Positions 4,543 to 54,200 of a stretch of 64,000 nt of DNA are shown here, in pieces; within the stretch, counting starts at the first letter, position 1; each line of letters begins with the position of its first letter. The notes below the pieces were generated by a model, which made no database searches, was not told the DNA's origin, and saw only the letters and a list, made by a program, of their open reading frames with translations. This stretch comes from Ipomoea triloba. Its lineage: Eukaryota; Streptophyta; Magnoliopsida; Solanales; Convolvulaceae. Location: contig NC_044924.1 in assembly GCF_003576645.1 (NCBI RefSeq), forward strand, positions 18,814,977 to 18,878,976, read 5' to 3'. The translations under genes and the position numbers were made by a program.

Positions 4543-4675
4543 GGAGCATAACCGGGTGCATACGGGTCTTCTCCCTCCATCATCTGTATATAGTCGTCAT
4601 AGTCCATACCCTGACACACATACTCCGGTGAGCTTCGGGGCTCACCGGGCTGTAAGAACTGACGCTAGACTGCAT
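4543..4675 (-). pseudogene. Remnant of the LTR-encoded ORF, cut by the gap
   Basis: The minus strand encodes SPEYV...MDYDDYIQ...DPYAPGYA before running into the N gap. The same motif order, ending in DPYAPG(Y/F)AP, occurs in the LTR ORFs at 36282-36773 and 33461-33850. The ATG at 4675 directly follows an acceptor-like AG, but it is not in frame with the conserved part. The conserved frame is open from behind a TAG near the start, so either the copy is frameshifted or a second AG (TTCTTACAG, near 4658) is used. The function of the protein is unknown. Confidence 0.6.
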
Positions 4676-4691
4676 CTGATAAAAACACAGT

Positions 4692-4722
4692 GAAGTGTAG
4701 TTAGCACGACGGCTAAGTAAGG
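4692..4722 (-). promoter_or_regulatory. Conserved LTR block with branch-point-like CTAAC
   Basis: On the minus strand a 31-bp sequence beginning CCTTACTTAGCCGTCG is identical to blocks at 36235-36265, 38757-38787, 46955-46985 (plus) and 51543-51573 (minus). It contains GTGCTAACTAC, fits a plant branch point, and lies 14 bp before the acceptor-like AG of this LTR. Confidence 0.6.
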
Positions 4723-6480: not shown

Positions 6481-6573
6481 TATGTACACAAAAATTCCAT
6501 CTAGCACTCCAAGTAATTTCACCCAAATCATCAATCACCTAGTTTCAAATAACCTCAACCAAATAAAGGGATT

Positions 6574-6579
6574 CCTTAC
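6574..6579 (-). promoter_or_regulatory. Splice-donor-like site in the LTR
   Basis: The minus strand reads AAG|GTAAGGAATCCC. The block matches donors at the same relative place in four other LTRs here (34929, 45690, 49292, 54383). Paired with the AG at 4676-4677 it would define an intron of about 1.9 kb. This is a prediction from sequence only. Confidence 0.5.
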
Positions 6580-7405
6580 CTTAACCGGGTTCCAAATTTT
6601 GTAGGAGATCCTTGTAGATGATTTTCCCCCAATTCACCTTAAAACCCTAGAATTCCATCAACCACATAACACATGATTTTAAGAAATTTTAACTTAGATT
6701 CATGTTCTAGGATGTAAAATAAAGCTATTTACCGAATAAAATTGGAGTTTTACCGAATATCTTGGAGGTTTGTGTGGAGATCTTGGCTATGGAAGGTTGG
6801 AGCTTTGATGAAGAAGATGATGAAAATTCACTCTCTCTCTTTCTTGAAGGATTTTCGGCCAAGCTAGGGGGAAAGGAGAAGAAAATTTGGATTTTTATGG
6901 TCTTGGTCAAAGGTTGACTAGTCCACCCCTCTTTGGATAAGATCTAACCTAAAAATGAATAAAATAATCTAAAACATCTCAACTTAGACTACTTGGGATT
7001 AAATCAGATGAATTCTTGGTAGAAACTAATTCAATTCAAATAATTCTCGAACCCAAAAATTTATTCCAGTCTAGAACTCAAAATTGGGCTAGGTTCGGTA
7101 CACCGCGAAATTTCGCGAGGTACGATCGCAAATAAATTTTGGCTGCTATGGGCTAATCTAATTAAATAGGAAATTCAAGAATAATAGTATGATGCCTAAA
7201 AATCCATTTCCTAGGAAAAACGGGTCCGAATAGTAGTTCCTAAAATTTTTACGGTTCGTGACCGGGACGTATGATCACAGCTTATTACTAACTGTCCTTA
7301 CTTATAATAATTCTTTTGAGGCATCGGGAGATCATCTCATGAATGTTATAGCCTAAAGAAATGTTTTTCGAACCTTAATTTTACTGAAATAGGTGGGGGG
7401 TTACA

Positions 7406-25503: not shown

Positions 25504-25881
25504 TTCGTACTTTTGATATATCTATATACATTTCAAATTTTTTTATTTTGTTTATACATTTATATTTTTATCACTTATTTTCGTTATTTATTTTTTGTTA
25601 TGTTTTTACGTGATTTGTATTTCTATTCGGGTTCATACTTTCTTTACAATATAACATATATGTATATATATATTATTTTTTTTTTGAATTTCTTTTGTTA
25701 GTTGGTGTTTGCATATATCTCTAACTAGTTTCCTTTTTGGATTCAAATTCCTTATTTTTTTCATTTCTTTCTTCCTTTATTTCCTTTATTGTTCTGTTTT
25801 GTTTTCCGTCTCAGACCTACACGACCAGCGACGGATTCACCGATTTTTTTTCCCTTTTCTTCTCTCCATCGCACCCGCGCC
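25504..25881 (+). other. T-rich spacer between pol and the extra ORF
   Basis: Strongly T-rich sequence ending in a pyrimidine run and CGCGCC before the ATG at 25882. Such a tract could serve as a splice acceptor for a subgenomic message of the next ORF. No other feature is seen. Confidence 0.4.
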
Positions 25882-27336
25882 ATGCCGCCGAGACGCTCGC
25901 AGTCGACCGCCGCCGTCGCTCACCGGACGCGGTCCAAACTAGCTGCCGCTCGGCCACCTTCGCCGCCGGCCAGTGTCGCTCGGCGCCTGCAGTTCGAAGC
26001 CATGTCGCCGCACTGCCCTGCCGCCGCCAATGATCAATCATCATCGCCGCATCCCTCTTCCGCCGGTGATCAACCACCGTTCTCGCCCTCCGTGGTCGGC
26101 CAACCGCAGCTAAAACCGTCCACCCTACGTACAGATGCACCAGTTTGCCGCGGCTCTGTGGAGATTTCTTCGGCCGAAAATAACCGCAGCCAAAATCAAC
26201 CGCAGCCGATACCAACCGTTCACTTACCGCAGTATGCTGGCAAAGGACTGTTACATCCTCCTTCTACTCAACATATCTCTACGAGTGAATCATCAGAGTA
26301 CTCTCCCCTCCAGCCTTTGCAAACTCTCTCAGATAATGCCTTTTCTCATTTATTTTACTGTGCTGCATTATCCTCCTTCTATCGTTCGTTGTCTGTCAAA
26401 AGTTTTATATGCCAGAAGAAGATTGTCATTAGTGATTTTACTGCGAAAACGGGTCTTATTGGAAAATTGAAGTCATGCCAGTTGTTTACCTTTGTGGTTA
26501 CTATTGACCAGTTTGTTAAACCCGTAGTCTATGAATTTTATGCTAATCTGGCTCCGGAATTGGTCTGTCACAATCATGTTCATATTCGGGGTCGATTGTT
26601 TGATTTTGGTCCAGATAGTATCAATCATTACTTTTGGTCTGCTGATTATGATGATGAATTTGTTGAGGATATGGACCAGATTACTGCCAAGCTGACAGGT
26701 GGGGCTAAAACTCGATGGGTTGCAAAGGATACTATTAAGGCTGTAGACCTCACTGCATCCTTCGCACTGTTGCACAAGATTGCATGTACGAATTGGATGC
26801 CAACCAAACATCATTCCTATGTCAAGAGATCCATGGCTGTGCTTCTCTACAAAATTGACCAGGGTGTCATGATTAATCTTGGCAAATTGCTCTTTCAGCA
26901 GATATTGGACGCTCGGAATGGTGCAAACAACAGGAAGGAGCTGATTTTACCTAACCTTATTTATGGTATTCTTGTTTCACAGGGATTTAAGAAGCATGAT
27001 ACCGAGGATTATGAGGCTCAATCTTTACCTATTAAGGTAGATCCTCGCCTACTACATAGAACTCATGTTGATGACCTTAGTGCTCGTGAGGATTCCCACC
27101 ACCAGACTCGGTCCTCATCTGATGGTGCCATAGTCGATACTATCCACATTCTTGAAGAAGAGTTGGTTGCCATCCATGACGAGCAAAAGCGGCTGGCCTG
27201 CCGTCGTGTAAAGATTGATAATATTCTGAAAAGGCTTCGTCGTGAAGACGCGGAGAATGTCGATGTTCTTTCTGAGGTTGCGTCCTCTTCGGCTTCGTCC
27301 TCTAATGATGACTCACCAGCTTCCCCTTCTTGTTGA
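25882..27336 (+). CDS. Extra ORF behind pol (env-position, 'putative plant transposon protein' type)
   Basis: 484 residues from the ATG at 25882 (MPPRRSQSTAAVAHRTRSK). The upstream in-frame ATG at 25789 lies in the T-rich spacer and is less likely. The protein has a basic, proline-rich, probably disordered N-terminus (to about residue 150), a globular middle with VYEFYANL, then VHIRGRLFDFGPDSINHYF and a conserved-looking W-rich end, and a C-terminal coiled coil (about 415-460) followed by a serine-rich acidic tail. The middle resembles the domain annotated in plants as 'putative plant transposon protein' (recalled as Pfam Transposase_32, not searched). I see no signal peptide or membrane segment, so an envelope role is not supported by sequence, although Sireviruses often carry an env-like ORF in this place. 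The frame is intact, unlike pol. Confidence 0.8.
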   Translation: MPPRRSQSTAAVAHRTRSKLAAARPPSPPASVARRLQFEAMSPHCPAAANDQSSSPHPSSAGDQPPFSPSVVGQPQLKPSTLRTDAPVCRGSVEISSAENNRSQNQPQPIPTVHLPQYAGKGLLHPPSTQHISTSESSEYSPLQPLQTLSDNAFSHLFYCAALSSFYRSLSVKSFICQKKIVISDFTAKTGLIGKLKSCQLFTFVVTIDQFVKPVVYEFYANLAPELVCHNHVHIRGRLFDFGPDSINHYFWSADYDDEFVEDMDQITAKLTGGAKTRWVAKDTIKAVDLTASFALLHKIACTNWMPTKHHSYVKRSMAVLLYKIDQGVMINLGKLLFQQILDARNGANNRKELILPNLIYGILVSQGFKKHDTEDYEAQSLPIKVDPRLLHRTHVDDLSAREDSHHQTRSSSDGAIVDTIHILEEELVAIHDEQKRLACRRVKIDNILKRLRREDAENVDVLSEVASSSASSSNDDSPASPSC

Positions 27337-33112: not shown

Positions 33113-33850
33113 TGTAACACCCCGACTCGGCTTACCGTACAACCGGAGTAGTTACCGCCACACCTAGAGTGAATTCTATCACCTCTTTGACAAACTCCAC
33201 TCTAAGTGCACAGGCTAAATGGAAACGCTTCACAACAACTGTCACCCAACATAGTCATATGCATATATTTGAGCCAAAAAGGGCTTAGTTAACCAGTCAG
33301 ATACATATCTACCTATATATACAAGGATGTGCCCGGTGGGCCAAAAGACCAGTTCGGATTGATCACAATCCTACTAACCCAGCTCATAAACCGCTAAGGT
33401 TACAAAAAAAATATTTACACAAAAGATAAAGTTCCCAAAGGTTTTTCTGAGGTATACCACCTACTCGATCTGTTGGTATACCGGGCCCGTAAACATTCCC
33501 CACACTAGATGCCACTCCCCTTCAAACCAAGTGATATGGTCTAGGAAACGAGATTTGATGTTCATCATAAACCATTCATCCCAAAATTCTGGAGGACTCG
33601 AGTCACAAGGGTGAGGGTAATGAACAACAAACTCTAGAGGATTACTTCCCTCCAAGCTTTCTATGGGGTAAAAACCAAAATAGGTTTGGACATCAAGACC
33701 ATCGGAAATGGGAAGAAAACTATCTACTGCAGGTGAGCTATCTGGAGCCATAGGAGCATAGCCAGGTGCGTAAGGGTCGGCACCCGTCATCCACGGTATA
33801 TACACCTCGTAGCCTATCCCTGGGTATGTGTACTCCGGCGAATCTTGGGG
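33113..33850 (-). repeat. Solo gypsy LTR 'E', left part
   Basis: Begins TGTAACACCCCGACTCGG (minus-strand LTR end). With its right part (47801-49941) it is flanked by perfect GGTTT duplications at 33108-33112 and 49942-49946. It aligns to the first part of the LTR at 3941-7405. At 33851 it changes abruptly to the plus-strand Tekay element. Compared with the 3941-7405 LTR, a few hundred bases of E are missing between its two parts. Confidence 0.87.
33461..33850 (-). pseudogene. LTR-encoded ORF in LTR E (5' end lost)
   Basis: The minus strand encodes about 130 residues of a protein homologous to the ORF at 36282-36773. Shared parts include DPYAPG(Y/F)AP, LEGS(D/N)PLEFVV, WDEW.MM, FLDH(I/L)TW and WHLVWG, ending in a normal stop. 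Codons for the shared block FLDH.TW...WHLVWG differ mainly at third positions. The first ten or so residues of the apparent frame come from the adjoining Tekay element and are not part of the gene. The true start is lost at the junction. Function unknown. Confidence 0.75.
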
Positions 33851-33961: not shown

Positions 33962-34928
33962 GATCGATTTACTTGCTATATGCTTAAATAAATTTGTGTA
34001 CTAAGATTAGGCATACTAAGATTTTATTATGTGTAAGCGAAGGTAAGCAGTAATCTATTTGAGACCGTGGAGTATAAGAAGGAAGTTTCGGGGACGAAAC
34101 TCTTTTTAAGGAGGGTAGACTGTAACCCCTCGTCTATTTCGATAAGTTTGAGGTTCAGAAAATATGTCTTTAAGCTATGACATTCATAAGATAAGTGACC
34201 GATGCTTCAAAATAATTTTTTTTAAGGAAGTATAGTTGTTATTAAGTTGCGATCGTTCGTGCCGGTCACGAACCGTAAAATTTTAGGAGCTGGTATTCGG
34301 ACCCGATTATCCTAGGAAATGGATTATTAGGCACCATATTATTATTCTTGAACTTCCTATTCAATTAAATCAGCCCATAGCAGCGAAAATTTATTTTGAT
34401 CGTACATCGCTAAAATTTCGCGGTGTACCGAACCTAACCCAATTTTGAGGGTTAGTCTGGAATAAATTTTTGGTTTCGAGAATTATTCTATCAAGATTAT
34501 TTTCTACCGAAACTTTATCTGTTTGGACCCCAACTGATAAGTTTGAAAATACTTCATTATTTTATTCTATTTTTTTTTCCCCATAAAAACATCTTACCTC
34601 AAAAGGAAGAATACCCAAAGCCAATTTATTCCATTTGTTATTCTTCTTCTTCTTCCTTGGCTGAATTTCAAAAGAGAGAAAGAGAGGTGACTTCCACCAT
34701 TTTCCTCCATTAAAACCATAGCCAAGCTTGTACACAACTCTCCAATTTGTTCGGTAAGATTTCAATATTAATCGGTTAAAAAGTCTTGATTTCTTCCCTA
34801 GAACTTGATTGTAGGTAAAGATTTCTTAAATATGTTGTTATGGTGGTGTATTCTACCTAGGGTTTTTCGGTGAAACTTGGGGATAAAGGTTCAAGACTAC
34901 TTTTACGGTGATATTACACACTTGTGAG

Positions 34929-36281
34929 GTAAGTTGGAATTAGTCACTTGAATTTGGATAATTGATTTTAGTTGAAATATGGTGTTTTTGGAGCTTTGGG
35001 AATATTTTCGTATACAAGTTCATAGCACAAGTTCATAGCTTGGATATGCTTGTATATGTTGTATTTATGTCTATATAAGTTTATAGTTGTGGAAATAGAG
35101 AAAGGAAATCAGGACAGATTTCTATCAGTAACTTCCGTGAATTTCTGGGAAAAATCGGTAAATTATTTTGGTCCAATTTTTTTTATACATGTAGTTCTAT
35201 AAGTGTAGAAGCCGCATATAAACGTTCATAATTTTTGGAGTAGTATAAGTATGGTTTTCGGAATTTTTCCCAAAACTGGTCCAGAGAAGGAAAAATGCTA
35301 CAGCACACTGCCAAGGGCAAAAAAATGGAATTTTCTGTGTATATTCGTGAACCTAGGTGACCAAAACTTTTTATGAACATCAAGTACTATGAGTTAGGGT
35401 TCTACCATAAAAATTTCAAGTGAAAAAGAGTTCGGGAACTATTTTTACCGGCTCAATCTTTCTGGACAGAAACTGTCAAAATCAATTTTGACAAAAATAT
35501 TTTTTTTTGTAACAAAACTAGTGACGAAATTTTGGGATGTCACAACCATATTTGGATGAAATAAATTATTTTGAAAATACTATTTGATTCCAGGAAAGAA
35601 AAAGAAAAATGTTTTCAAACCCTTAGTTTCTGGAATAAGGTGGGGACCTTCGGGAAGGCTTAAACGCCACGGCCCGGGGTTGGAATAAGGTTGGACCTAT
35701 GGGAGGGCTGGAGTGCCATGGCCCTAGGTTAGGATAAGGAGACCGACGGGAAGGCAGGGAAATGCCACTGCCCAAGGTTTGAGAAGGAGAATTGAGAAAT
35801 GTTCAAAGTGCTTACTCAGGGGAAACTAAGTGGAAAATTTTTGAGTATGAAAATTATTGTTATTCTGGGCTGCGGTTCAGATTATTATAGAGCTGCGGTT
35901 CTATATGCAGTATGAAAATTGTTGTTACTCTGAGCTGCGGTTCAGATTATTATAAATATTAGAGCTGCGGTTCTATTTGCAAATGATGAAATTCCTGGAA
36001 ATGTGAAATTTTGCAAACTTGTCTGAAAAGGGCATGAAAATTATTTTGAGTGGCAAGTTATGACTTCATTCTTATTTGAGAAAAGATTTATATGATTTAA
36101 CGTTTATACGCTATTATACTATCTATAAATCGTTTCGTTACAGGCAGATTTTCAAATCACGGTAAAACTTTATAAAGCTTTTAGATTATCTATGTTTTCA
36201 AACCTTTGTCTACTTTTAAGTGACAAATGGATTTCCTTACTTAGCCGTCGTGCTAACTACACTTCGTTGTGTTCTTAACAG
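34929..36281 (+). other. Predicted intron inside the Tekay LTR
   Basis: Donor GAG|GTAAGT at 34929, branch-point-like CTAAC at 36253-36257, acceptor TTCTTAACAG ending at 36281, directly before the ATG of the LTR ORF. Length 1,353 bp. Donor and acceptor blocks recur in other LTRs of this window. A ~480-bp part (about 34990-35460) resembles 53860-54240 of the solo LTR at 51231. No transcript evidence is available. Confidence 0.5.
36235..36265 (+). promoter_or_regulatory. Conserved 31-bp LTR block
   Basis: Begins CCTTACTTAGCCGTCG and contains GTGCTAACTAC. Identical in the other Tekay LTR copies and, reversed, at 4692-4722 and 51543-51573, although flanking sequence in those families is diverged. 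It ends 14-17 bp before the acceptor-like AG. Confidence 0.6.
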
Positions 36282-36773
36282 ATGTCTAGTGTAGGCTTGT
36301 GTAGCCCACCTGACTCGGATCCTTCCGAGTTGGAGTTCCCTATCTACGATCATGATGATTATGTACAGTACTTAGTTGATGTCGACCCGTATGCTCCTGG
36401 ATTCGCTCCTGACTCTCCAGCTCCGGCTTATGTTCCTGCTATTCCTTCCCCACCGTACAGTCCTCCTCCGACTTACCCAACTACACCCTCTCGTATCCCG
36501 GTTCGCAGTAGCCAGCCAAATTTTCTGGATGGGGCCAGGTCTAGGTTTGGGTCTTTTCCGGTAGAGGTGTTGGAAGGGAGTGATCCCTTAGAATTTGTTG
36601 TCTTTTATCCCTGTCCGTGGAATCTCGCTCCTTCGGAACGTTGGGATGAGTGGTCCATGATGTACACTCCTAGTTACTTCCTGGATCATCTCACCTGGGT
36701 TGCGGGCAACTGGCATCTTGTATGGGGGACGTACTCCGAACCGGAGTACCGCCCCTTAGAAGAGGATGACTGA
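36282..36773 (+). CDS. LTR-encoded 163-residue protein of unknown function
   Basis: Starts with ATG immediately behind TTCTTAACAG (MSSVGLCSPPDSDPSELEF). The N-terminal half is acidic and then proline/tyrosine-rich (residues 45-80, PSPPYSPPPTYPTTPSRIP). The C-terminal half is compact and tryptophan-rich: FPVEVLEGSDPLEFVV, WDEWSMM, FLDHLTW, WHLVWG, ending in acidic LEEDD. I see no signal peptide, membrane span or known catalytic motif. It lies wholly within the LTR, so each element has two copies. The copy in the 3' LTR differs at one synonymous base. A homologue in LTR E (33461-33850) keeps the tryptophans and most hydrophobic residues. I do not recognise the family; a host-derived or element-specific accessory protein is possible. 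Confidence 0.65.
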   Translation: MSSVGLCSPPDSDPSELEFPIYDHDDYVQYLVDVDPYAPGFAPDSPAPAYVPAIPSPPYSPPPTYPTTPSRIPVRSSQPNFLDGARSRFGSFPVEVLEGSDPLEFVVFYPCPWNLAPSERWDEWSMMYTPSYFLDHLTWVAGNWHLVWGTYSEPEYRPLEEDD

Positions 36774-37082
36774 TTAGAAAGATTATGGGAGGAACCCTTT
36801 TTTTTGTGTACATGTATCTTTTGTAGCCATGATGAACTTAGCTGGCTAGTAAGTCGTATTTAAACTCTTGTATATATTATGGTAGTTAGTGTAGCTCCCC
36901 TTTTGCTCACCTATATATATATGTATGAAGATATGTTGGGTAATGATGATGATGATGTGAAATAGTTTTCTTGTTAGCCTGTGCACCTAGAGTGAACTCT
37001 GTCTGGTCTTGGCTGGGTTTAGTCTAGGTGTAGCGGTAACTACTCCGGATGTACGGTATAGCCGAGCCGGGGTGTTACAAGT

Positions 37083-37094
37083 TTGTATCAGAGC
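37083..37094 (+). other. Primer binding site with one mismatch
   Basis: TTGTATCAGAGC instead of TGGTATCAGAGC, 3 bp after the LTR end. The same change is in the repeated copy at 39605-39616. Confidence 0.8.
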
Positions 37095-37559
37095 CTAGGT
37101 TGAACCTTCGGGAATTAGATCGAAGCCTAAGTCCGAGCCTAGGTTGAGTTCAAGTTTCAAGTCAGCTTAGGTTCGTAGAGATTAACCTAAGTCGTTGTTA
37201 CGGTATCATGAGCATAAGCTTTGGAGCAGAGTTGGAACGAAAGTCCGGCATCATAAAAGGGGGTATTTTACTTTTACTCTACAGAATCTTACGATTCTGG
37301 TTGTTGAATAATATGATCAATGTTTGTGATTTCTTGCATGTGTTAATCCTTGCATGGGATTATTGTGAGTAAGCTGGCTAGCGTAATGCGTTAATTATCC
37401 CTATGCTGAGGTAGAAACCCCTGCTTAGCGGGTATGATAAAGTGAATGTTAGGGGACGTTGTATAGGACTTAAGTAGGTGCTATACTGACTGCCTAACTA
37501 GCTAACCCTCGAGGACTCTTATACTTCGGATACTAATTTGGATCTATCGTCCAGTGAAA
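37095..37559 (+). other. Untranslated leader of the Tekay element (first copy)
   Basis: Between the primer site and gag, about 465 bp, repeated at 39617-40081. No ORF recognised. Confidence 0.6.
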
Positions 37560-37742
37560 ATGCCTCCAAGACGCAACATGCCTACCAGTAGCAACGAGAA
37601 CGTCTCTGCAATTGATCGTATGGCCCAAGCGATGGAGCGAATGGTTGAGTTCATGATGGCTCAGCAAACCCAGAACCAGAACCAAGGACAACCACGAGTC
37701 GATTATGCGAAGGCGATAGCAAGCCGACAACCACCACACTAT
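37560..37742 (+). pseudogene. Start of Tekay gag, cut at the N join
   Basis: First 61 codons of gag ([11 protein letters not shown]...), identical to the start at 40082, ending at CACACTAT before the N. The break lies at the same CACACTAT where the full copy has its 42-bp duplications, which marks a contig end. Confidence 0.85.
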
Positions 37743-40264
37743 NTTCATAATTTTTGGAGTAGTATAAGTATGGTTTTCGGAATTTTTCCCAAAACTGGTC
37801 CAGAGAAGGAAAAATGATGGACAGCACACTGCCAAGGGCAAAAAAAATGGAATTTTCTGTGTATATTCGTGAACCTAGGTGACCAAAACTTTTTATGAAC
37901 ATCAAGTACTATGAGTTAGGGTTCTACCATAAAAATTTCAAGTGAAAAAGAGTTCGGGAACTATTTTTACCGGCTCAATCTTTCTGGACAGAAACTGTCA
38001 AAATCAATTTTGACAAAAATATTTTTTTTTGTAACAAAACTAGTGACGAAATTTTGGGATGTCACAACCATATTTGGATGAAATAAATTATTTTGAAAAT
38101 ACTATTTGATTCCAGGAAAGAAAAAGAAAAATGTTTTCAAACCCTTAGTTTCTGGAATAAGGTGGGGACCTTCGGGAAGGCTTAAACGCCACGGCCCGGG
38201 GTTGGAATAAGGTTGGACCTATGGGAGGGCTGGAGTGCCATGGCCCTAGGTTAGGATAAGGAGACCGACGGGAAGGCAGGGAAATGCCACTGCCCAAGGT
38301 TTGAGAAGGAGAATTGAGAAATGTTCAAAGTGCTTACTCAGGGGAAACTAAGTGGAAAATTTTTGAGTATGAAAATTATTGTTATTCTGGGCTGCGGTTC
38401 AGATTATTATAGAGCTGCGGTTCTATATGCAGTATGAAAATTGTTGTTACTCTGAGCTGCGGTTCAGATTATTATAAATATTAGAGCTGCGGTTCTATTT
38501 GCAAATGATGAAATTCCTGGAAATGTGAAATTTTGCAAACTTGTCTGAAAAGGGCATGAAAATTATTTTGAGTGGCAAGTTATGACTTCATTCTTATTTG
38601 AGAAAAGATTTATATGATTTAACGTTTATACGCTATTATACTATCTATAAATCGTTTCGTTACAGGCAGATTTTCAAATCACGGTAAAACTTTATAAAGC
38701 TTTTAGATTATCTATGTTTTCAAACCTTTGTCTACTTTTAAGTGACAAATGGATTTCCTTACTTAGCCGTCGTGCTAACTACACTTCGTTGTGTTCTTAA
38801 CAGATGTCTAGTGTAGGCTTGTGTAGCCCACCTGACTCGGATCCTTCCGAGTTGGAGTTCCCTATCTACGATCATGATGATTATGTACAGTACTTAGTTG
38901 ATGTCGACCCGTATGCTCCTGGATTCGCTCCTGACTCTCCAGCTCCGGCTTATGTTCCTGCTATTCCTTCCCCACCGTACAGTCCTCCTCCGACTTACCC
39001 AACTACACCCTCTCGTATCCCGGTTCGCAGTAGCCAGCCAAATTTTCTGGATGGGGCCAGGTCTAGGTTTGGGTCTTTTCCGGTAGAGGTGTTGGAAGGG
39101 AGTGATCCCTTAGAATTTGTTGTCTTTTATCCCTGTCCGTGGAATCTCGCTCCTTCGGAACGTTGGGATGAGTGGTCCATGATGTACACTCCTAGTTACT
39201 TCCTGGATCATCTCACCTGGGTTGCGGGCAACTGGCATCTTGTATGGGGGACGTACTCCGAACCGGAGTACCGCCCCTTAGAAGAGGATGACTGATTAGA
39301 AAGATTATGGGAGGAACCCTTTTTTTTGTGTACATGTATCTTTTGTAGCCATGATGAACTTAGCTGGCTAGTAAGTCGTATTTAAACTCTTGTATATATT
39401 ATGGTAGTTAGTGTAGCTCCCCTTTTGCTCACCTATATATATATGTATGAAGATATGTTGGGTAATGATGATGATGATGTGAAATAGTTTTCTTGTTAGC
39501 CTGTGCACCTAGAGTGAACTCTGTCTGGTCTTGGCTGGGTTTAGTCTAGGTGTAGCGGTAACTACTCCGGATGTACGGTATAGCCGAGCCGGGGTGTTAC
39601 AAGTTTGTATCAGAGCCTAGGTTGAACCTTCGGGAATTAGATCGAAGCCTAAGTCCGAGCCTAGGTTGAGTTCAAGTTTCAAGTCAGCTTAGGTTCGTAG
39701 AGATTAACCTAAGTCGTTGTTACGGTATCATGAGCATAAGCTTTGGAGCAGAGTTGGAACGAAAGTCCGGCATCATAAAAGGGGGTATTTTACTTTTACT
39801 CTACAGAATCTTACGATTCTGGTTGTTGAATAATATGATCAATGTTTGTGATTTCTTGCATGTGTTAATCCTTGCATGGGATTATTGTGAGTAAGCTGGC
39901 TAGCGTAATGCGTTAATTATCCCTATGCTGAGGTAGAAACCCCTGCTTAGCGGGTATGATAAAGTGAATGTTAGGGGACGTTGTATAGGACTTAAGTAGG
40001 TGCTATACTGACTGCCTAACTAGCTAACCCTCGAGGACTCTTATACTTCGGATACTAATTTGGATCTATCGTCCAGTGAAAATGCCTCCAAGACGCAACA
40101 TGCCTACCAGTAGCAACGAGAACGTCTCTGCAATTGATCGTATGGCCCAAGCGATGGAGCGAATGGTTGAGTTCATGATGGCTCAGCAAACCCAGAACCA
40201 GAACCAAGGACAACCACGAGTCGATTATGCGAAGGCGATAGCAAGCCGACAACCACCACACTAT
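37743..40264 (+). repeat. N join followed by a second copy of LTR 3' part, leader and gag start
   Basis: After the single N the sequence restarts at TTCATAATTTTTGG and repeats 35226-37742 almost base for base (small indels near 37816 and 37842). It includes a second LTR ORF, primer site and leader. Most probably overlapping contig ends were both kept. Confidence 0.85.
38804..39295 (+). CDS. LTR-encoded protein, second printed copy
   Basis: Encodes the same 163 residues as 36282-36773. It lies in the probably artefactual repeat, so it should not be counted as an independent gene. Confidence 0.55.
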   Translation: MSSVGLCSPPDSDPSELEFPIYDHDDYVQYLVDVDPYAPGFAPDSPAPAYVPAIPSPPYSPPPTYPTTPSRIPVRSSQPNFLDGARSRFGSFPVEVLEGSDPLEFVVFYPCPWNLAPSERWDEWSMMYTPSYFLDHLTWVAGNWHLVWGTYSEPEYRPLEEDD

Positions 40265-43200
40265 GATTATGCGAAGGCGATAGCAAGCCGACAACCACCA
40301 CACTATGCTTATGCGAAGGCGATAGCAAGCCGACAACCACCACACTATGCTGGAGAAAAAGATCCGGTTATTTTAGAGGAGTGGATCCGGACGTTTGACA
40401 AACTGCTCAACGCAGTGGATTGCCCTGCAAATCAACGAGTACCTTCCGCGGTCTATTATTTAACGAAAGCTGCAGACAACTGGTGGACATCAGAAGGACC
40501 TGATCTTCTACAAGACCCAGAGTTTGGTTGGGAAGAATTCAAGGAGGAACTGAGGGGACAGTTCTACACCGAGCGTATTAGAGGGATTAAATGCGAGGAA
40601 TTTCTACGGCTAAAACAGAAGGGAGCAACAATCGAAGAATATCATGACCAGTACGTGGAACTAATGCGTTTCGCTCAGGAGATTGTACCTAATGAAGCAA
40701 GTAAGGCACGAAGGTTTGTTCGAGGATTGGACTGGGATGTAAGGAGGGCGATTGCGCCATTCATGTGCTCTACCTTGAAGGAGGCGTACGATAGAGCCTC
40801 GGACCATTACCAGGTGTACCTAGATCAACAAGAAGTTTATGGCCGAAATAAAAGAAAGGCCGATGACAAGTCACAGAAATCCGCACTGGGAAACAAGAGA
40901 GTGAACCAAGGTGGCTCCAACCTAATATCAGGAAGAGGAAGGGAAAGAATTAACAAAGGAAACCGTTTTACTTGTTCAAGATGTGGAAGGAATCATCCAG
41001 GAGTGAATTGCCAAGGAGTGAGGATTAAGTGCTTCACATGCGGTCTTTCTGGGCACAAGTCCTTTGAGTGCCAGAGTCGGGTAGACAGTCCTCAAAAACT
41101 CCTACAGAACGTGAACCAAGGGAGAAGATTTAATGGGAATACTGGTCAGAGACCCGCAGAGATAGGAAACAAAATGGTCAACTCTCAGTCAGCAAATCCG
41201 GGAGGACCAACAAACGTCGCATCTGGTTCCAACCACAAAGGGAAACAAGTGATGGGAGAAGGTAGCGCGGGAAACCAAGGCAGAATTTACGTCGTCAATA
41301 GCACTCAGGCTCAGGCTAACGACGCCGTAACTGGTACATTTCCCATAAACTCAGTACCTGGAATAGTGTTATTTGATACAGGAGCTACCAATTCATTTAT
41401 ATCATCTGCATTTGCTGATAGACTGAAATTAAGGCCTACTATTGAGCTAGATCTAAATGTCAAAACTGCTTCGGGAATAGTAGTAGCCTGTAGAAATGGT
41501 TATGATAACATTGCGATAGAAATAGCTGGAACTAACTGTCCCGGAAATCTCGTTCGTTTTGAACTTGAGGGCATTGATGTAGTACTCGGAATGGATTGGT
41601 TGGATAAGTATAAAGCTCGGATAGTGTGTGATGAGCGGAAGATTGTGCTACGAGGACTAGAAGGGAGGAGAATATCCTACCGAGGGATTGACAAGCAACA
41701 CGAATCCAGGTTGTTGACAGCGCAGAAACTGAAGCAGTATATGCACCAGGGATGTGAAGTATACCTCTGTTTGGTGCAAGATTCCGAACCAGAAGAACTC
41801 GAAATCGATCGAATCCCAGTTGTACGCGAATTTCCTGACGTGTTCCCCGACGATCTCACAGAAATGCCACCGGAAAGAGAGCTGGAATTCACCATTGATC
41901 TCATACCAGGAACCTCACCTACCTCGAAAGCGCCTTATCGAATGGCACCGAAAGAGATGGAGGAACTAAAGGCACAATTGGCGGAATTACTGGAGAAAGG
42001 ATTTATCAGACCAAGCGTATCGCCTTGGGGTGCACCGGTACTGTTCGTTAAGAAGAAGGATGGGAGTCTTAGACTGTGCATCGATTACAGGGAACTAAAC
42101 CGAGTCACAGTAAAGAACAAGTACCCGTTGCCTAGGATCGATGATCTATTCGATCAGTTGAAAGGAGCGGGAGTGTTTTCAAAGATTGACTTACGGTCAG
42201 GGTATCATCAAGTGCGAGTCGCGAAGGGGGATGTGCCTAAGACAGCATTTCGGACGAGATATGGGCACTATGAATTCACGGTTATGCCATTCGGAGTGAC
42301 TAACGCCCCAGGAACCTTTATGGACCTGATGAACCGAATTTTCCTTCCCTATTTGGATAAATTCGTCGTCGCCTTTATAGATGACATCTTGGTCTACTCT
42401 GAGACACCGGAGGATCACAAGGGACATCTTCGGACAGTGTTACAAACACTAAGGGAAAAGAAACTTTTTGCGAAATTGTCAAAGTGTGAATTTTGGAAAA
42501 GAGAAGTTGCTTTTCTTGGACACGTAATCACCCAAGAAGGGATAGCAGTGGACCCAGCTAAGATACAAGCTGTACTTGAATGGGAAGCACCCAAATCAGT
42601 TACGGAAGTCCGTAGTTTCTTAGGTTTGGCGGGTTATTACCGAAGATTTGTTCAGGACTTCTCAAGGATAGCAAAGCCGTTGACAAACCTGCTCAAGAAA
42701 ACGACCAAGTATAGTTGGAGTGAAGAATGTGAGCAGGCATTCCAAGAACTTAAGACGAGATTGACGACTGCTCCAATATTGACCTTACCTGTTGGAGCGG
42801 AAGGTTACGAGTTGTACACGGATGCATCTCACAAGGGACTAGGATGTGTTTTGATGCAAAATAGAAGGGTAATAGCATATGTTTCTCGCCAATTAAAAGC
42901 TCATGAAGCTAACTACCCGACGCATGACTTAGAACTGGCAGCCGTGGTATTTGCTCTCAAGATTTGGCGACACTACCTCTATGGAATCTCATGCAAGATT
43001 TATACGGACCACAAGAGTTTAAAGTACATCTTTACTCAGCGAGACCTTAATCTAAGGCAAAGGAGATGGTTGGAATTGATCAAAGATTATGACTTGGAAA
43101 TCCAATACCAGGAGGGCAAAGCAACCAAGGTAGCTGATGCCTTGAGTCGAAAATCAAACCATGCTCTTTGGGTATTACCCGAACAATTATGCGAGGATTT

Positions 43201-44722
43201 TCAGAGACTGAATTTGGAGATACAGATGTGTGGTCAGGTGGAACAGGAAATAAACTTTTATTACATGTCGGTGACTCCAACCCTATTCCAGGAAGTCAAA
43301 CAAGCACAAGAAGAGGACAATTGGGTAGGGAGCATCAGGGAGAAGATGATTGATGGAAAACATGGTCCATTTGAATTACACCCAGATGGGAGTGTAAGAT
43401 TCCAAGGCAGGTGGATAATACCAAAAGGGTGTAAGGAGATAATGGAACAATTAATGAAGGAAGGTCATTATACACCCTATTCAGTTCATCCTGGTGGGGA
43501 TAAACTGTATAAGGACTTAAAACAAAATTTCTGGCGGTCGGGCATGAAGAAGGATGTAGCTGAATTTGTGGCTAAATGCTTGAACTGTCAAAAGGTCAAG
43601 GCAGAAAGAAGTAAACCAAAGGGATTATTGCAGCCATTAGAAATTCCGCAGTGGAAATGGGACTCCCTCTCGATGGATTTCGTGGGAGGATTGCCTAGAA
43701 CCAAGTCTGGAAACGATCAGGTGTGGGTTATTGTCGATCGACTAACTAAGACAGCGAGGTTCATTCCAATGAACAAGACATGGTCCATGGAAAGGTTGGC
43801 AAGAGCCTATATTAAACACGTGGTTAAATATCACGGAGTAGCGCAAGATATCGTTTCAGACCGAGATTCTCGATTTCTATCACGTTTCTGGGAAGCGTTG
43901 CAGATGATGATGGGCACTCAGCTCAAATTAAGTACAGCTTTTCACCCTGCCACTGATGGCCAAACGGCGCGAACGATACAGACATTGGAAGATATGCTCA
44001 GAGGTTGTGTACTTGATTTCCAAGGTTCATGGGATGCGCAGTTGGATTTAATCGAATTTTCCTATAACAACAGCTATCATGCAAGTATAGGAATGGCTCC
44101 TTATGAAGCGCTGTATGGGCGAAAATGTCGAAGTCCTCTATGTTGGAATGACAAGAGCGACGTTGTTATACTTGGACCTCAGTACCTACAAGAGACTACA
44201 GAGGCAATCAAGGTGATTCGAGAAAGGATGAAAATTGCCCAGGATCGTCAAAAGTCCTATGCCGATTTGAAACGACAATTCTCCGAACATCAAGTTGGAG
44301 AGAAGGTGCTATTGAAAATCTCACCAACTAAAGGAGTCAAGAGATTTGGAAAGAAAGGAAAGTTGAGTCCTCGCTATATAGGACCCTATGAAATCTTGGA
44401 AAGGATAGGAAATTTAGCCTCCCGACTGGCCCTACCAATTGAGCTTGACCGGGTGCATAATGTACTTCATGTTTCTCAACTTAAGCGGTATGTACCTGAA
44501 GCATCCCATGTATTGGAACCGGAGGAAGTGGAGGTGGATGATTCGTTGGAATACGAAGAAAGGCCAATTCGAATCTTAGACTCTAAGACCCGAGATACAA
44601 GAAGGAAATCAGTTAAAATGGTCAAAGTCCAATGGTCGAATCATAGCTCGGAGGAAGCCACGTGGGAGTTGGAAAGCGTTATGATGGAACGTTATCCAGA
44701 GTTATTTGGCTCAGGTGTGTAG
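40082..44722 (+). CDS. Tekay-type chromovirus gag-pol polyprotein
   Basis: 1,546 residues from the ATG at 40082 (MPPRRNMP) in one uninterrupted frame; the GTG six bases upstream is not a likely start. In order: gag; cysteine motifs [13 protein letters not shown] and [14 protein letters not shown] (317-330); protease (FDTGATNSF, Asp432); reverse transcriptase with IDDIL (Asp767-768); RNase H ([11 protein letters not shown]); integrase with HHCC finger ([10 protein letters not shown]) and core Asp1199 and Asp1260; C-terminal chromodomain (about 1490-1540, [18 protein letters not shown]). The catalytic glutamate expected 35 residues after Asp1260 is alanine (GCG, 43967-43969, context DGQTARTIQ), so integrase should be inactive as printed. 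Two 42-bp duplications near the start (40223-40348) add 28 residues of [14 protein letters not shown] and are probably artefacts. Numbers include them. Confidence 0.93.
40223..40348 (+). repeat. Triple 42-bp repeat in gag (likely assembly artefact)
   Basis: Copies start at 40223, 40265 and (shifted by two) 40309. All have a period of 42 and are identical over the overlap. The homologous gag at 3449 (minus) has a single copy of this segment. Confidence 0.88.
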
Positions 44723-44881: not shown

Positions 44882-45689
44882 TGTAACCCCTCGTCTATTT
44901 CGATAAGTTTGAGGTTCAGAAAATAGGTCTTTAAGCTATGACATTCATAAGATAAGTGACCGATGCTTCAAAATAATTTTTTTTAAGGAAGTATAGTTGT
45001 TATTAAGTTGCGATCGTTCGTGCCGGTCACGAACCGTAAAATTTTAGGAGCTGGTATTCGGACCCGATTATCCTAGGAAAGTGATTATTAGGCACCATAT
45101 TATTAGTCTTGAACGTCCTATTCAATTAAATCAGCCCATAGCAGCGAAAAGTTAGTTTGATCGTACATCGCTAAAATTTCGCGGTGTACCGAACCTCGCC
45201 CAATTTTGAGGGTTAGTCTGGCATACCTTTTTGGTTTCGAGAATTATTCTATCAAGAGTATTTTCTACCGAAACTTTATCTGTTTGGACCCCAACTGATA
45301 AGTTTGAAAATACTTCATGAGGTTATTCTATTTTTTTTTCCCCATAAAAACATCGTACCTCAAAAGGAAGAATACCCAAAGCCAATTTATTCCATTTGTT
45401 CTTCTTCTTCTTCTTCCTTGGCTGAATTTCAAAAGAGAGAAAGAGAGGTGACTTCCACCATTTTCCTCCATTAAAACCATAGCCAAGCTTGTACACAACT
45501 CTCCAATTTGTTCGGTAAGATTTCAATATTAATCGGGTAAAAAGTCTTGAGTTCTTGCCTAGAACTTGATTGTAGGTAAAGATTTCTTAAATATGTTGTT
45601 ATGGTGGTGTATTCTACCTAGGGTTTTTCGGTGAAACTTGGGGATAAAGGTTCAAGACTACTTTTACGGTGATCTTACACACTTGTGAG

Positions 45690-47001
45690 GTAAGGAATTC
45701 CCTTCAGTTGGAATTAGTCACTTGAATTTGGATAATTGATTTTAGTTGAAATATGGTGTTTTTGGAGCTTTGGGAATATGTTTGTATACATGTTCATCGC
45801 TTGGATATGCTTGTATATGTTGTATTTATGTCTATATAAGCTTATACTTGTGGAAATAGAGAAAGGAAATCAGGACAGATTTCTGTCAGTAACTTCTGTG
45901 AATTTCTGGGAGAAATCGGTAAATTATTTTGGTCCAATTTTTTTTATACATGTAGTTCTATAAGTGTAGAAGCCGCATATAAACTTTCATAATTTTTGGA
46001 GTAGTATAAGTATGGTTTTCGGAATTTTTCCCAAAACTGGTCCAGAGAAGGAAAAATGCTGGACAGCACACTGCCAAGGGCAAAAAATGGAATTTTCTGT
46101 GTATATTCGTGAACCTAGGTGACCAAAACTTTTTATGAACATCAAGTACTATGAGTTAGGGTTCTACCATAAAAATTTCAAGTGAAAAAGAGTTCGGGAA
46201 CTATTTTGACCGGCTCAATCTTTCGGACTGCGCAAAACTGTAATTTCTGGACAGAAACTGTCAAAATCAATTTTGACAAAAATATTTTTTTTTGTAACAA
46301 AACTAGTGACGAAATTTTGGGATGTCACAACCATATTTGGATGAAATAAATTATTTTGAAAATACTATTTGATTCCAGGAAAGGAAAAGAAAAATGTTTT
46401 CAAACCCTTAGTTTCTGGAATAAGGAGGGGACCTTCGGGAAGGCTTAAACGCCACGGCCCGGGGTTGGAATAAGGTTGGACCTATGGGAGGGCTGGAGTG
46501 CCATGGCCCTAGGTTGGGATAAGGAGACCGACGGGAAGGCAGGGAAATGCCACTGCCCAAGGTTTGAGAAGGAGAATTAAGAAATGTTCAAAGTGCTTAC
46601 TCAGGGGAAACTAAGTGGAAAATTTTTGAGTATGAAAATTATTGTTATTCTGGGCTGCGGTTCAGATTATTATAAATATTAGAGCTGCGGTTCTATTTGC
46701 AAATGATGAAATTCCTGGAAATGTGAAATTTTGCAAACTTGTCTGAAAAGGGCATGAAAATTATTTTGAGGGGCAAGTTATGACTTCATTCTTATTTGAG
46801 AAAAGCTTTATATGATTTAACGTTTATACGCTATTATACTATCTATAAATCGTTTCGTTACAGGCAGATTTTCAAATCACGGTAAAACTTTATAAAGCTT
46901 TTAGATTATCTATGTTTTCAAACCTTTGTCTACTTTTAAGTGACAAATGGATTTCCTTACTTAGCCGTCGTGCTAACTACACTTCGTTGTGTTCTTAACA
47001 G
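45690..47001 (+). other. Predicted intron inside the 3' LTR
   Basis: Donor GAG|GTAAGGAATTCCC at 45690, conserved block 46955-46985, acceptor TTCTTAACAG ending at 47001. 1,312 bp. Confidence 0.5.
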
Positions 47002-47493
47002 ATGTCTAGTGTAGGATTGTGTAGCCCACCTGACTCGGATCCTTCCGAGTTGGAGTTCCCTATCTACGATCATGATGATTATGTACAGTACTTAGTTGAT
47101 GTCGACCCGTATGCTCCTGGATTCGCTCCTGACTCTCCAGCTCCGGCTTATGTTCCTGCTATTCCTTCCCCACCGTACAGTCCTCCTCCGACTTACCCAA
47201 CTACACCCTCTCGTATCCCGGTTCGCAGTAGCCAGCCAAATTTTCTGGATGGGGCCAGGTCTAGGTTTGGGTCTTTTCCGGTAGAGGTGTTGGAAGGGAG
47301 TGATCCCTTAGAATTTGTTGTCTTTTATCCCTGTCCGTGGAATCTCGCTCCTTCGGAACGTTGGGATGAGTGGTCCATGATGTACACTCCTAGTTACTTC
47401 CTGGATCATCTCACCTGGGTTGCGGGCAACTGGCATCTTGTATGGGGGACGTACTCCGAACCGGAGTACCGCCCCTTAGAAGAGGATGACTGA
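47002..47493 (+). CDS. LTR-encoded 163-residue protein, 3' LTR copy
   Basis: Same protein as 36282-36773, with one synonymous difference in the seventh-codon region (GGA for GGC in SSVGLC). It lies in the same position in the LTR, behind the same acceptor-like site. Confidence 0.62.
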   Translation: MSSVGLCSPPDSDPSELEFPIYDHDDYVQYLVDVDPYAPGFAPDSPAPAYVPAIPSPPYSPPPTYPTTPSRIPVRSSQPNFLDGARSRFGSFPVEVLEGSDPLEFVVFYPCPWNLAPSERWDEWSMMYTPSYFLDHLTWVAGNWHLVWGTYSEPEYRPLEEDD

Positions 47494-47906
47494 TTAGAAA
47501 GGTTATGGGAGGAACCCTTTTTTTTGTGTACATGTATCTTTTGTAGCCATGATGAACTTAGCTGGCTAGTAAGTCGTATTTAAACTCTTGTATATATTAT
47601 GGTAGTTAGTGTAGCTACCCCTTTTGCTCACCTATATATATATGTATGAAGATATGTTGGGTAATGATGATGATGATGTGAAATAGTTTTCTTGTTAGCC
47701 TGTGCACCTAGAGTGAACTCTGTCTGGTCTTGGCTGGGTTTAGTCTAGGTGTGGCGGTAACTACTCCGGATGTACGGTATAGCCGAGCCGGGGTGTTACA
47801 TCAACAAATAGTGAAAAATCATGAATTTTACATTTTGATTTCAATCAGATGATTTGAAATTTTCCTCACAAGGAACTTTCCACCAACTTTCGCCTCAACG
47901 AGGGCT

Positions 47907-48114
47907 CACCAACTTCCCTTGGTACTTAAACTTTCATCACATCTCCTTCACCAACTTCCCTTGGTACTTAAACTTTCATCACATCTCCTTTCATCGTAGC
48001 TACAGAGTAACTACATTCTCATATCAAAAGTTTCATCGTAGCTACAGAGTAACTACATTCTCATATCAAAAGTCTCATCGTAGCTACAGAGTAACTACAT
48101 TCTCATATCAAAAG
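47907..48114. repeat. 42-bp perfect duplications in LTR E (likely artefacts)
   Basis: One duplicated unit at 47907/47949 and a triple at 47989/48031/48073, all with period exactly 42. Confidence 0.82.
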
Positions 48115-48268
48115 TCCACTTAGTTTCTTTGTAGAAAGCACATTCTCATATCAAAAGTCCACTTAGTTTCTTTGTAGAAAGCATTTTCTCATATCAAAAG
48201 TCCACTTAGTTTCTTCTTCGAAAGGACATTCTCATATCAAAAGTCCACTTAGTTTCTTCTTCGAAAGC
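48115..48268. repeat. 43-bp minisatellite in LTR E
   Basis: About 3.5 units starting TCCACTTAGTTTCTT at 48115, 48158, 48201 and 48244, with internal substitutions (GTAGAAAGC versus TTCGAAAG). Unlike the perfect 42-bp copies beside it, the units differ, so this array is probably genuine. The related LTR at 3941-7405 has one unit. Confidence 0.75.
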
Positions 48269-49941
48269 GTGAGGCCTTTGGAGTATTCTGCTTAACTCCC
48301 TCTCTGACCACTTGGATCATCGAACTCCGGTTCAGTGGTCATCCCCCGGTCTAATATTGATCCCCTGGACGTAAGGTTCGTTAGAATGATTCCTAGTTGG
48401 CCCTACTAGGTCCATAAAAACGACACCTACCCGGACTTCATAGAGTAACTATACTTTAAGTGTGCACACCCCCAGGAATATCTCATCCTAACGAGTTATA
48501 CAGTACTCGGCGAATAGACTTCGCCCACAGTATGAATGATCATACAACATAACAACCATTGGGCAAGGGCACTTAAAGCCACCCGTAGGTCAATCAAGTT
48601 CCTCCTCAACTTACTCAGAAACTAAGGTTTTCAAAACATTCTTTCTTTTCTTGAACAAAAAGACATTTTTAGATATACTTCATATTCAAGTCTCATACTT
48701 GAAATCAATCCACCTCCTTTACCAAGTCCAAAAGTTTCCTTTTCCTTTTCAAACACCTTGATAGTATACTAATTACCATTCACCGAGGTGATTAAGTATA
48801 ACTATCATAACGTTGTCAATGTCACATTTCACATGTTCATGACATACAACACATACATATGTATATATAACGTATAACATCTCATATTACTTATACATAT
48901 ATACATATGGTACATGTACTATATATGATATATAAATCATACATATGTTTATATCTATGCACAATCACACACATACTATATATGTATATTCAATTAATTA
49001 TTCATGCTAGATATATATTTAACATATATGCAGTACACACAACACACACACACGACATCACTATATATATATAATATATATATTTTCGAAATATATATAT
49101 ATATGTATATTATACTTGGTATACTCATATCACGATTATATGTACTTGTTTACAAAATATGATCTTCACATAGCATATATGTTTATATTTCCTACTAACA
49201 TGCACACAATTAAATTTCAACATAGAATTCTTAATTTCAACTATCAATTATTTAATTTCAAGTAACCTTATCCAACTTAAGGAATCCCTTACCTCAAAAG
49301 CGATTTATGTCTCCTTAGAAACGTTCTTGAATTATTTTCCCCAAATGTTCACCTAGAAACCCTAGGAAAATTCAACACCATAACAACATATTTAAGAGAT
49401 TTCTACCTAGAATTAGGATCTAGGGATGAAAATAAAGCCTTTAACCAAATAAAATTAAAGTTTTACCGAGTATTGAAGAACTTGTGAAGAAAATTTGGCT
49501 ATGGATTCTTGAGCTTCAAGGAAGAAAATGAAGACTAAAACTCTCTCTCTTCTCTCTTGTTTATTTCGGCCAAGGGGAGTAAATGGGAGATCAATCCACT
49601 AAATTTTACTCGTTAATTAATTTAATAATGATGTGTGGTGAGTTAAAGTGACACTTGTCACATTCTTGTGGTGAATCTTGGAAAATATCTTTGGCTTGCC
49701 AGTTATGAGTTAAAATAGATATAATTATAGTAGAAAATATTTTAGTTAGGAACTGAACGCATGTTCCTAAAAATTTTACGGTTCGTGACCGGCACACATG
49801 TTCGCAGCTTATTAACGACTATTCTAACTAGTAAAAATCATTCTGAAATATCTGTAGATCACAACTCATGTATGTCAATGCCTTAGAATAAAATAATTTT
49901 TTTTCGAACTCTAGGCTTATTGGAACGAGTGGAGTGTTACA

Positions 49942-51230: not shown

Positions 51231-54200
51231 TGTAACACCCCAATTTTCACATCTTGGATTTATTACAAAATCCTTAAAATATAATACATTGCGGAAGCAT
51301 CTAACCAGCAAAAAAAACTGGGGGTTACCGCCACGCTTAGGTATCTCTCCTATACCCAAACGCTAAGGCTAAACTTACAACATCGAATAACCACATCAAT
51401 ATTCCAACTTAATACATATGGAAATAATTCTTCCAGGGTGTCTATTCTAGGATAGAGTAGTCTTCAACCTCGACTCCCATCCTATTCTGAGCTCATCGGC
51501 CACAGGGGCCCACGCTAGACTGCATCTAATAAAGGACACAATGAAGTGTAGTTAGCACGACGGCTAAGTAAGGAAATCTATTGTCACTTAAAAGTAGACA
51601 AAGGTTTGAAAACATAACAATTTGAAAGCTTTATAAAGTTTTTCCCTTGATTTGAAAATCCACCTGCAACCAAATGATTCGTAGATAGCATAATAGTGTA
51701 TATACATTAAATCATGTAAAGCTTTTCTCATAGAAGAGATATTCATTTCCTCATTATTGTTTCAAATAAAATATGTGCCAATAATCACAACTTCCACATG
51801 TATGCACCATATCATACTCATAATCATACTCATACTCATACTCATCCTCATAGTCATAATTATCATCATAATCATATAAGCATTTAAATAGAAATAACCA
51901 GTTTTTACCATAATGAAGTTAAAGATATTCCAATTCACACCATAATTTCCTTCTCATTTCCATCATCTCACCACAACCTAGTTATTCCAACTAGGGGAAG
52001 CAGACCTAGGACCTTTAGTGTGCACACCCCTTGTCGGGATTCCAAGCCCGCAGGTTAGTCACTAGCTCTAGTAACCCTGGATATGTTTCTACAAGGTTAC
52101 TCAAGTGGTTAACACCAATCATTTTGGGGCCCAATGTTTGTAATTCCATTATGAATGTTAAAAAGGAATATCCTCCAACTTCACACCGTGATTTCATTTT
52201 GTCTCATTCTTTACTTTCTCGCTTTATGCATTTTGAACAATATAGGTCTACCTTTGTATATATATATATATAAGGTTGTAAACACATATACATGTCTACT
52301 ACATATATTCATCACAACATAATCGTATACTAGTTACCTCATATAATCATCCACATATCTACATATATTCATCATATACCACAATCACACCAATCTTTCA
52401 TCTACTAAAATCTTTATATCCATACTTTATCAAGAAATTCATGAATATCATGGTGGAAAAAGGTTTTGGTGGACATAAAGATTACCTTATCTTCTTGAAA
52501 ATGTTACTAACTTCCTCTAGACGCTCACTCTTCCACTTCCTTTGGTTCTTCACCGTAAGTTTTCATAAACATTTTCACTTGCCCAAAGGCTTTTCAAACG
52601 TAGTTCAAGTACGAGCAAAATTTGGAAGAAAACAAAGTTGAGAAAATACTGAACACAAGCTGGTCACTCATCGGATACTTATATATTTCTACTAACACTA
52701 CATATATCCATTCCCAATACTTATTCCTTATCATGAATCTCAGTTCCTCTTACAATCCAATCATCATCGGTGATCCATAATCATGGTTCCACCATTAATT
52801 AATAATAGATAGTTGTCCTTGTCACTATCGTCATCAACAACTTTCACTATCATCAACACCATTATAACTTAAGGAAATCACACATCTATAAACAACACTT
52901 AGTCACCCATAATCCAACAATGAACCTTAATCATTCTTAAGCATTAATTATTGTCATTAGTAACTACTAACCTTGTAATCCATCATCGACAACAAGTCAA
53001 CAACATTATAACATCATTATCAAGTCATCGAAAGCATTAACACCATTATTAACCATAATCCATAATTATCCATTAATCTAAACCATTAACTCATAATCAC
53101 CGATTCATAACTCATGTACCATAATTATAGCATTATATATCACCACCATAATTATAATTCAACATCTTAGCTCAACAACATAATGACATCACCATTATCA
53201 ATAACGTTATCCATCATTCCATCATCCTCATTTAATTCCATCATTAATCCAATCTTTAATCATAATCCTTATAAGCTCATAATCTTCATAACTTTCCTTA
53301 CTTAGTAATAAGAATAATAGTTCCTAATCACCATTATTAATAATCACCACCCTTAACCATAATTCATAATTGATTTCAAACCTTAAATCACTAAACCATA
53401 ACTCATCATTAGACCACAATTTCTCACATTCAACAACTTACCCATCTATAATTAACATAAACCTTTAGTCATTAGTCCAACATTATCCTCATCACTAGGC
53501 TTCAACGTGAACCAAATCACCAATCTATATCATATTCTTAGCATCCTCTCATTACTCAATAATCACCATAATTAATCCTTAAGTACTCTTAATCATTACC
53601 TTAATCCGCCATCATTAATTAACAAAATTCATTAAACAACCCATGATACTCATTCATCCTGAATCTATAATCATTCTCATAACCTCTTAGGTTCATTACA
53701 ACCCCATCATCTAAACATCAATAATAATAATCAAAGCTTATACAATTTGATCTTACTCCCGAACCTACTGGACTCCACTGGACGCGCGTCCAGGGCCGCG
53801 TCCAACACGTTCCGCCTATTCTGGACAGTAATTCAGCTTGGCGCAGTCCAAAAGATTGAGCCGGTAAAAATAGTTCCCGAACTCTTTTTCACTTGAAATT
53901 TTTATGGTAGAACCCCAACTCATAGTACTTGATGTCCATAAAAAGTTTTGGTCACCTAGGTTCACGAATTAACACAGAAAATTCCATCTTTGCCCTTGGC
54001 AGTGTGCTGTCCGGAATTTTCTTCTCTCTGGACCAGTTTTGGAGAAAAATTCGAAAACCATACTTCCACTACTCCGATCATTATGAAATTTTATAGGCAG
54101 CTTCTACACTTATGGAACTACCTCTCTAAAAAAAAATTGGATCAAAATACCTTACCAATTTTTCCCTGAAATTCTCGGAAGTCACTGCCAGAGACTAGCT

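Follow-up and report, generated by a model that had tools for sequence, protein, structure and literature searches.

Within the long terminal repeats (LTRs) of a group of Ipomoea chromoviruses lies an open reading frame (ORF) of about 140-190 codons, oriented like gag-pol, placed toward the LTR's 3' end and selected as a protein. It was analyzed in a stretch of 64,000 nucleotides of Ipomoea triloba (NC_044924.1, positions 18,814,977 to 18,878,976), referred to below as the window, and in its copies across the genome. The reading we favor, with a probability of roughly 0.6, is that of a small accessory gene carried in the LTRs of this chromovirus group and provided with a spliced leader; judged from sequence, the ORF product probably serves the element as an accessory protein.

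The ORF copy T1 sits within the 2.96-kb LTR of a chromodomain-bearing Ty3/gypsy element (T), on the same strand as gag-pol (Table 1). Pieces of the gag-pol frame matched the Pfam families Chromo (PF00385, E 4.8e-6) and RVT_1 (PF00078, E 1.7e-28), and by the predicted chromodomain together with the Ty3/gypsy-type reverse transcriptase (RT) T is a plant chromovirus. The adjoining LTRs D and E may once have formed a single older LTR, which T then split; in comparison with LTR B, about 450 bases are missing between them. The intron part of LTR D contains 43-bp tandem repeats (48057-48311) similar to LTR B near 5107-5150. In LTRs T, B and E, the terminal 130 bases (36950-37079, 3941-4070 and 33113-33242) form similar strong hairpins by the LTR end, with predicted energies of -47 to -53 kcal/mol, and the LTR end TGTTACA is found at most 450 nt past the ORF stop in 69 of 76 copies. 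Elsewhere in the window, the segment 17583-27336 comprises a copia-type element and, after it, a 535-aa open frame (25729-27336) matching Transposase_32 (PF20167, E 3.7e-27), which resembles extra ORFs known from other plant retrotransposons.

Table 1. Features of the T element, the neighboring LTRs and the LTR-internal ORF in the window.
Feature	Position	Strand	Remark
LTR1 of T element (TGTAACCCC...GGTGTTACA)	34121..37079	+	
PBS-like TATCAGAGC	37086	+	after LTR1
gag-pol open frame of T element	40028..44722	+	protease, RT and chromodomain matches in pieces tested
3' LTR of T element	44882..47800	+	
3' part of LTR E	33113..33850	-	
LTR D	47801-49941	-	
Predicted non-coding leader exon	34601..34928	+	start uncertain; end set by 5' splice site GAG|GTAAGT; upstream ORFs (uORFs) of 13 and 6 codons
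Predicted intron, 1353 nt	34929..36281	+	GC 0.347; AG directly before ATG
Conserved block TTAGCCGTCGTGCTAACTACACTTC with presumed branch point	36241..36265	+	exact also at 38763 and 46961 (+), 51567 and 4716 (-)
LTR-internal ORF, copy T1	36282..36773	+	163 codons plus stop
ORF copy in 3' LTR of T element	47002..47493	+	protein identical to T1; one synonymous difference
ORF copy in probable assembly duplication (37744-40264)	38804..39295	+	protein identical to T1
Homologous ORF in LTR E	33461..33850	-	N-terminus lost
5' end of ORF in LTR B (3941-7405, -)	4543..4675	-	frameshifted; cut by N run 4261-4542
ORF remnant in LTR C	51493..51525	-	MQSSVGPCGR*, ten codons then stop

A preliminary description of this DNA had reported a 163-codon ORF at 36282-36773 inside the LTR, which it labelled Tekay, a homologue in LTR E and a fragment in a further LTR. 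The ORF is confirmed, on the plus strand and thus on that of gag-pol, and dinucleotide shuffling of the LTR gave an ATG-initiated frame of at least this length in 2 of 1000 cases. The homologue in LTR E (33461-33850, minus) is real and lacks an N-terminus of its own, because the ATG listed for it at 33883 falls in the DNA of the adjoining element. The fragment at 4543-4675 does represent the beginning of the LTR B copy of the ORF, cut by a run of Ns; that it is shifted by one base after about ten codons had been overlooked, as had the splice sites and an assembly duplicate, while the observation of the ORF itself holds. Within the window, the ORF is open in T and E, frameshifted in B and lost in C.

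Three independent copies of the ORF in the window were considered and rejected. The copy at 38804-39295 is probably an assembly duplicate, because 37744-40264 repeats 35225-37742 at 99.84% across a single N (37743). Near-identical repeats flank the single Ns at 21465, 22853 and 37743. They measure 1375-1380 bp (99.9-100%) and 2521 bp (99.84%), have the appearance of overlaps left unmerged in gap filling, and seem to account for spurious tandem copies within a copia element and within the T LTR. As stated in the accessible portion of Wu et al. 2018 (PMC6214957), PacBio reads were used in gap filling of the assembly, which would fit duplications at single Ns.

The I. triloba genome (461,989,178 bases in 17 contigs) was searched with the T and E proteins and with the annotated protein of LOC116001498 (P0004), 150 of 1912, 1806 and 1834 candidates, respectively, being scored; the resulting at least 166, 153 and 151 matches are therefore lower bounds. 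The conservation in many family copies that is expected of an extra ORF is found here, in these match numbers together with a dN/dS of 0.20. Counted by hand under a score ranking that favors intact copies, stops occur in 5 of the first 97 rows for query T (all at least 96% identical to T) and in 5 of the first 20 rows for query E. Fusion with gag-pol, prompted by open frames of 2121 and 2046 aa around two C1 copies, was rejected, the one fetched (C1:13823214) having an upstream N run and a normal stop.

Selection on the protein is seen both in the window and in the genome. Over 127 codons, T and E differ at 46, 49 and 74 sites of the first, second and third codon positions, with a pN/pS of 0.475 (0.298 in the C-terminal 72 codons), and none of 5000 neutral simulations gave a value as low, either for the 127 codons or for the C-terminal part. 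For a wider comparison, 95 copies were taken from fetched loci, of which 74 were ATG-anchored, stop-free and 135-200 aa long, and 20 with less than 90% protein identity were kept; 93 of their 190 pairs (0.15<dS<2) were used and 97 were dropped as saturated or too close. The median dN/dS of these pairs, which are not independent and come from copies ranked by score, chosen by us and mostly stop-free, is 0.199 (interquartile range 0.16-0.235, one pair 1.02). As the choice mostly avoided stops, the intact share among the chosen copies is no estimate. The ratio is 0.311 in the N-terminal part (143 pairs) and 0.155 in the C-terminal domain (61 pairs), and out-of-frame controls gave 1.32 and 1.24 (189 pairs each). 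Among the first 11 representatives, the median is 0.229 (range 0.11-0.80; 46 of 55 pairs with finite dS), and in most between-subfamily pairs of this set 300 intron bases differ at about half of the aligned sites. The contrast between 0.20 in frame and 1.2-1.3 out of frame leads to the conclusion that the ORF protein is under purifying selection.

The earlier proposal of protein-level selection, with differences largely at third codon positions, is thus borne out by the between-subfamily median of 0.20 against the two controls, by the counts for T and E, and by those summed over the 20 genome copies (6455/6193/12270). Three outcomes had been named in advance as arguing against it. One of these, homology only to non-coding LTR sequence, is not the case, since the homology is to protein; as to another, frames broken in most copies, the stop counts given above come from a score ranking that favors intact copies, and the four window LTRs are divided between open (T, E) and damaged (B, C) frames. 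As for the third, a dN/dS near 1, the ratio is far below 1 between subfamilies and reaches 0.63 within the young T family. This last value is pooled over 26 copies (23 distinct), in which variants occurring once comprise 21 nonsynonymous and 18 synonymous changes and those found in at least two distinct sequences 8 and 1, so that the young T family alone shows no selection. The view that the ORF is a meaningless by-product of DNA that persists by chance, or because it functions in RNA or packaging, could draw on LTR parts whose conservation is at the nucleic-acid level, among them the 25-base block upstream of the ORF and the terminal hairpin; this highly improbable explanation is contradicted by the third-position excess and by a dN/dS that is low only in frame, and the contrast between frames largely refutes it.

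In its sequence, the LTR looks like a gene composed of a leader exon, an intron and a coding exon. The ATG of T1 is the first base of the predicted exon, and in T, B and C it is preceded by TTAGCCGTCGTGCTAACTACACTTC, then a pyrimidine-rich stretch and then AG. The GC content of the ORF (0.518) is exon-like in comparison with that of the predicted T intron (0.347). The block is conserved as nucleic acid and not as coding sequence, because its phase relative to the ATG differs (2 in T1 and B, 0 in C) and stops intervene in T and C. Of the 96 copies surveyed at 90 loci, a number of them overlapping or duplicated, 84 were ATG-anchored; the branch-point block, in a form allowing two variable bases, is present in 80 of these and AG precedes the ATG in 82 (AA in the other 2), counts that arise partly by construction, as the anchor required ACTTC and AG or AA. 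A 5' splice site of the form RAG|GTAAG[GAT] was found 1150-2100 nt upstream in 28 of the 39 copies with enough sequence, against an expectation of 0.07 per copy, and is absent from 11. Within the window it occurs in T1, T3, B, C and D, and it constitutes the best conserved stretch in an alignment of 19 leader regions. In some subfamilies, TATAAAG or TATAAAA is found ahead of a CT/GA-rich leader, and T has a degenerate form.

The NCBI model LOC116001498 joins other upstream sequence at exactly this acceptor to its residue 29, which is the M of the ORF. Its residues 29-156 equal the genomic frame of the C1 copies, which then have TAG; a search of the 4.2 kb fetched gave no counterpart of its first 28 residues. 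The 25-base T exon junction was not found in the genome with up to 3 mismatches, in a search run without a positive control; this absence fits an unspliced template RNA and equally no splicing. Taken together, the sequence features strongly suggest splicing of the LTR leader to the ORF exon. Points against reading the LTR as a gene are the 11 of 39 copies without the 5' site, the 2 of 84 with AA before the ATG, the two uORFs in the T leader, the degenerate TATA of T, the ratio of 0.63 and the 8 to 1 excess of nonsynonymous shared variants within T, and the damage to the ORF in B and C.

Alternatively, the ORF could be the 5'-proximal frame of the full-length element RNA, either translated there or acting in cis as a uORF before gag, with no mRNA of its own. 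A transcription start upstream of the ORF, which the leader-like sequence suggests, would indeed place it in the 5' leader before the PBS and gag. We nevertheless consider this unlikely, as the intron signals stop exactly at the ATG and a dN/dS that is low over the whole length, most strongly in the C-terminal domain, demands a working protein and not a mere uORF.

The encoded proteins are acidic, with a pI of 4.05-4.58 and few basic residues in the 12 members of at least 130 aa, which suggests contacts with proteins over binding of nucleic acids. The N-terminal part is acidic, aromatic and proline-rich. The model of the full-length protein is weak (pLDDT 66), and the C-terminal 78 residues alone are predicted as a beta domain of four strands (pLDDT 83.6, pTM 0.63). 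No match to a Pfam family was obtained for the 18 members scanned, and a fold search with the predicted structures gave no usable match. The protein search yielded 6 relatives from a single query, 22 from a profile and none new in a third round. Those that bear a name come from two I. triloba loci and from a 582-bp contig with the label Morganella morganii; the protein of this contig (P0011) is probably plant contamination of a bacterial assembly. This search, limited to proteins between 0.55 and 1.75 times as long as the query, detected no relatives outside the LTR family; a longer host relative could escape that range.

In the I. triloba gene model LOC116024109 (P0014; C7:11002556-11003473), the LTR ORF is joined to a SAC51-type bHLH segment, whose match (E 2.3e-6, 28.0 bits) is just below the Pfam cut-off of 28.5. 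A SAC51-like gene as the origin of the ORF was rejected: on C7, 348 nt separate the two parts, and the bHLH part is found at other places as well, from which we read the locus as a chimeric gene model beside an LTR, or it may be an exonised LTR. More generally, the LTR could derive from a captured host gene, with promoter, leader intron and coding exon, its conservation reflecting a host function. The anatomy is like that of a plant gene with an intron in the 5' UTR, and plant retrotransposons that have captured host genes are treated in the accessible text of a 2020 review (PMC7264820). The missing Pfam family and the narrow set of named relatives, two I. triloba loci and one probable contaminant within the length range searched, make such an origin quite improbable.

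If the ORF is an accessory gene of the LTR, as we favor, transcription would start about 500 bases into the LTR, and removal of the intron would give an mRNA with the LTR ORF as its main frame, from either LTR and possibly from solo LTRs. The unspliced RNA would be the reverse-transcribed template, which we infer because the intron is kept in the copies examined. With its conserved beta domain and its acidic, aromatic and proline-rich N-terminal part, the acidic protein might target host factors in trans, serving for instance as an LTR activator or anti-silencing factor; this activating or anti-silencing role is a guess of low confidence. A further-reaching and tentative proposal is that the LTR could be an autonomous intron-containing gene, with promoter, leader exon, intron, coding exon and polyadenylation signal between the LTR ends, and that every LTR, solo LTRs included, could supply a regulatory protein in trans, activating the family or countering silencing by the host. 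Long plant LTRs are usually regarded as non-coding control DNA and solo LTRs as dead remnants. If an LTR does carry a protein gene that is under selection and has splice sites of its own, solo LTRs may still make an element protein, and surveys restricted to long internal ORFs overlook such genes. Owing to the many copies per genome, RNA and ribosome data would allow a direct test of the proposed LTR gene.

No title or abstract on such an LTR-internal ORF of plants was found in the literature searched, largely without subscription papers and with an extra-ORF study of plant Ty3/gypsy elements outside its scope. The additional ORFs (aORFs or eORFs) of plant LTR retrotransposons lie in the internal region, according to the accessible text of the 2020 review (PMC7264820), and the available part of another report describes a conserved 5' aORF of about 400 aa in Tekay elements (PMC11728184). 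In the passages covered, the 5' aORF is recorded from Tekay elements of sunflower (Tekay group 2), maize, sorghum and rice, and the REXdb survey counted only ORFs of at least 250 codons. The Ipomoea ORF is likewise an extra conserved chromovirus ORF of no assigned function. It is set apart from the aORFs, by description only, in being shorter, in lying behind a conserved splice acceptor and in its location, which is not between the LTRs but in the LTR at 34121-37079 and again in the 3' LTR. Coding sequence within plant chromovirus LTRs is described, in the accessible text of PMC3605345, for the beet CRM elements and Bingo1-4 and 7, in which gag-pol runs into the 3' LTR. Their LTR coding sequence is thus the tail of gag-pol, whereas in T gag-pol stops at 44722, ahead of the LTR (from 44882), and a separate ATG opens the ORF at 47002, with no continuity between the two frames. 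Accessory genes in or overlapping the U3 region of an LTR are exemplified by sag of mouse mammary tumor virus (MMTV) and nef of HIV, which belong to vertebrate retroviruses and whose mRNAs are spliced from a donor outside the LTR. The Ipomoea ORF shares with them coding sequence for a probable accessory protein in the LTR; the parallel is one of location. The 18 members scanned gave no Pfam match and the fold search no usable one. In contrast to sag and nef, both predicted splice sites of the Ipomoea gene lie in the LTR, and its ORF is probably downstream of the transcription start.
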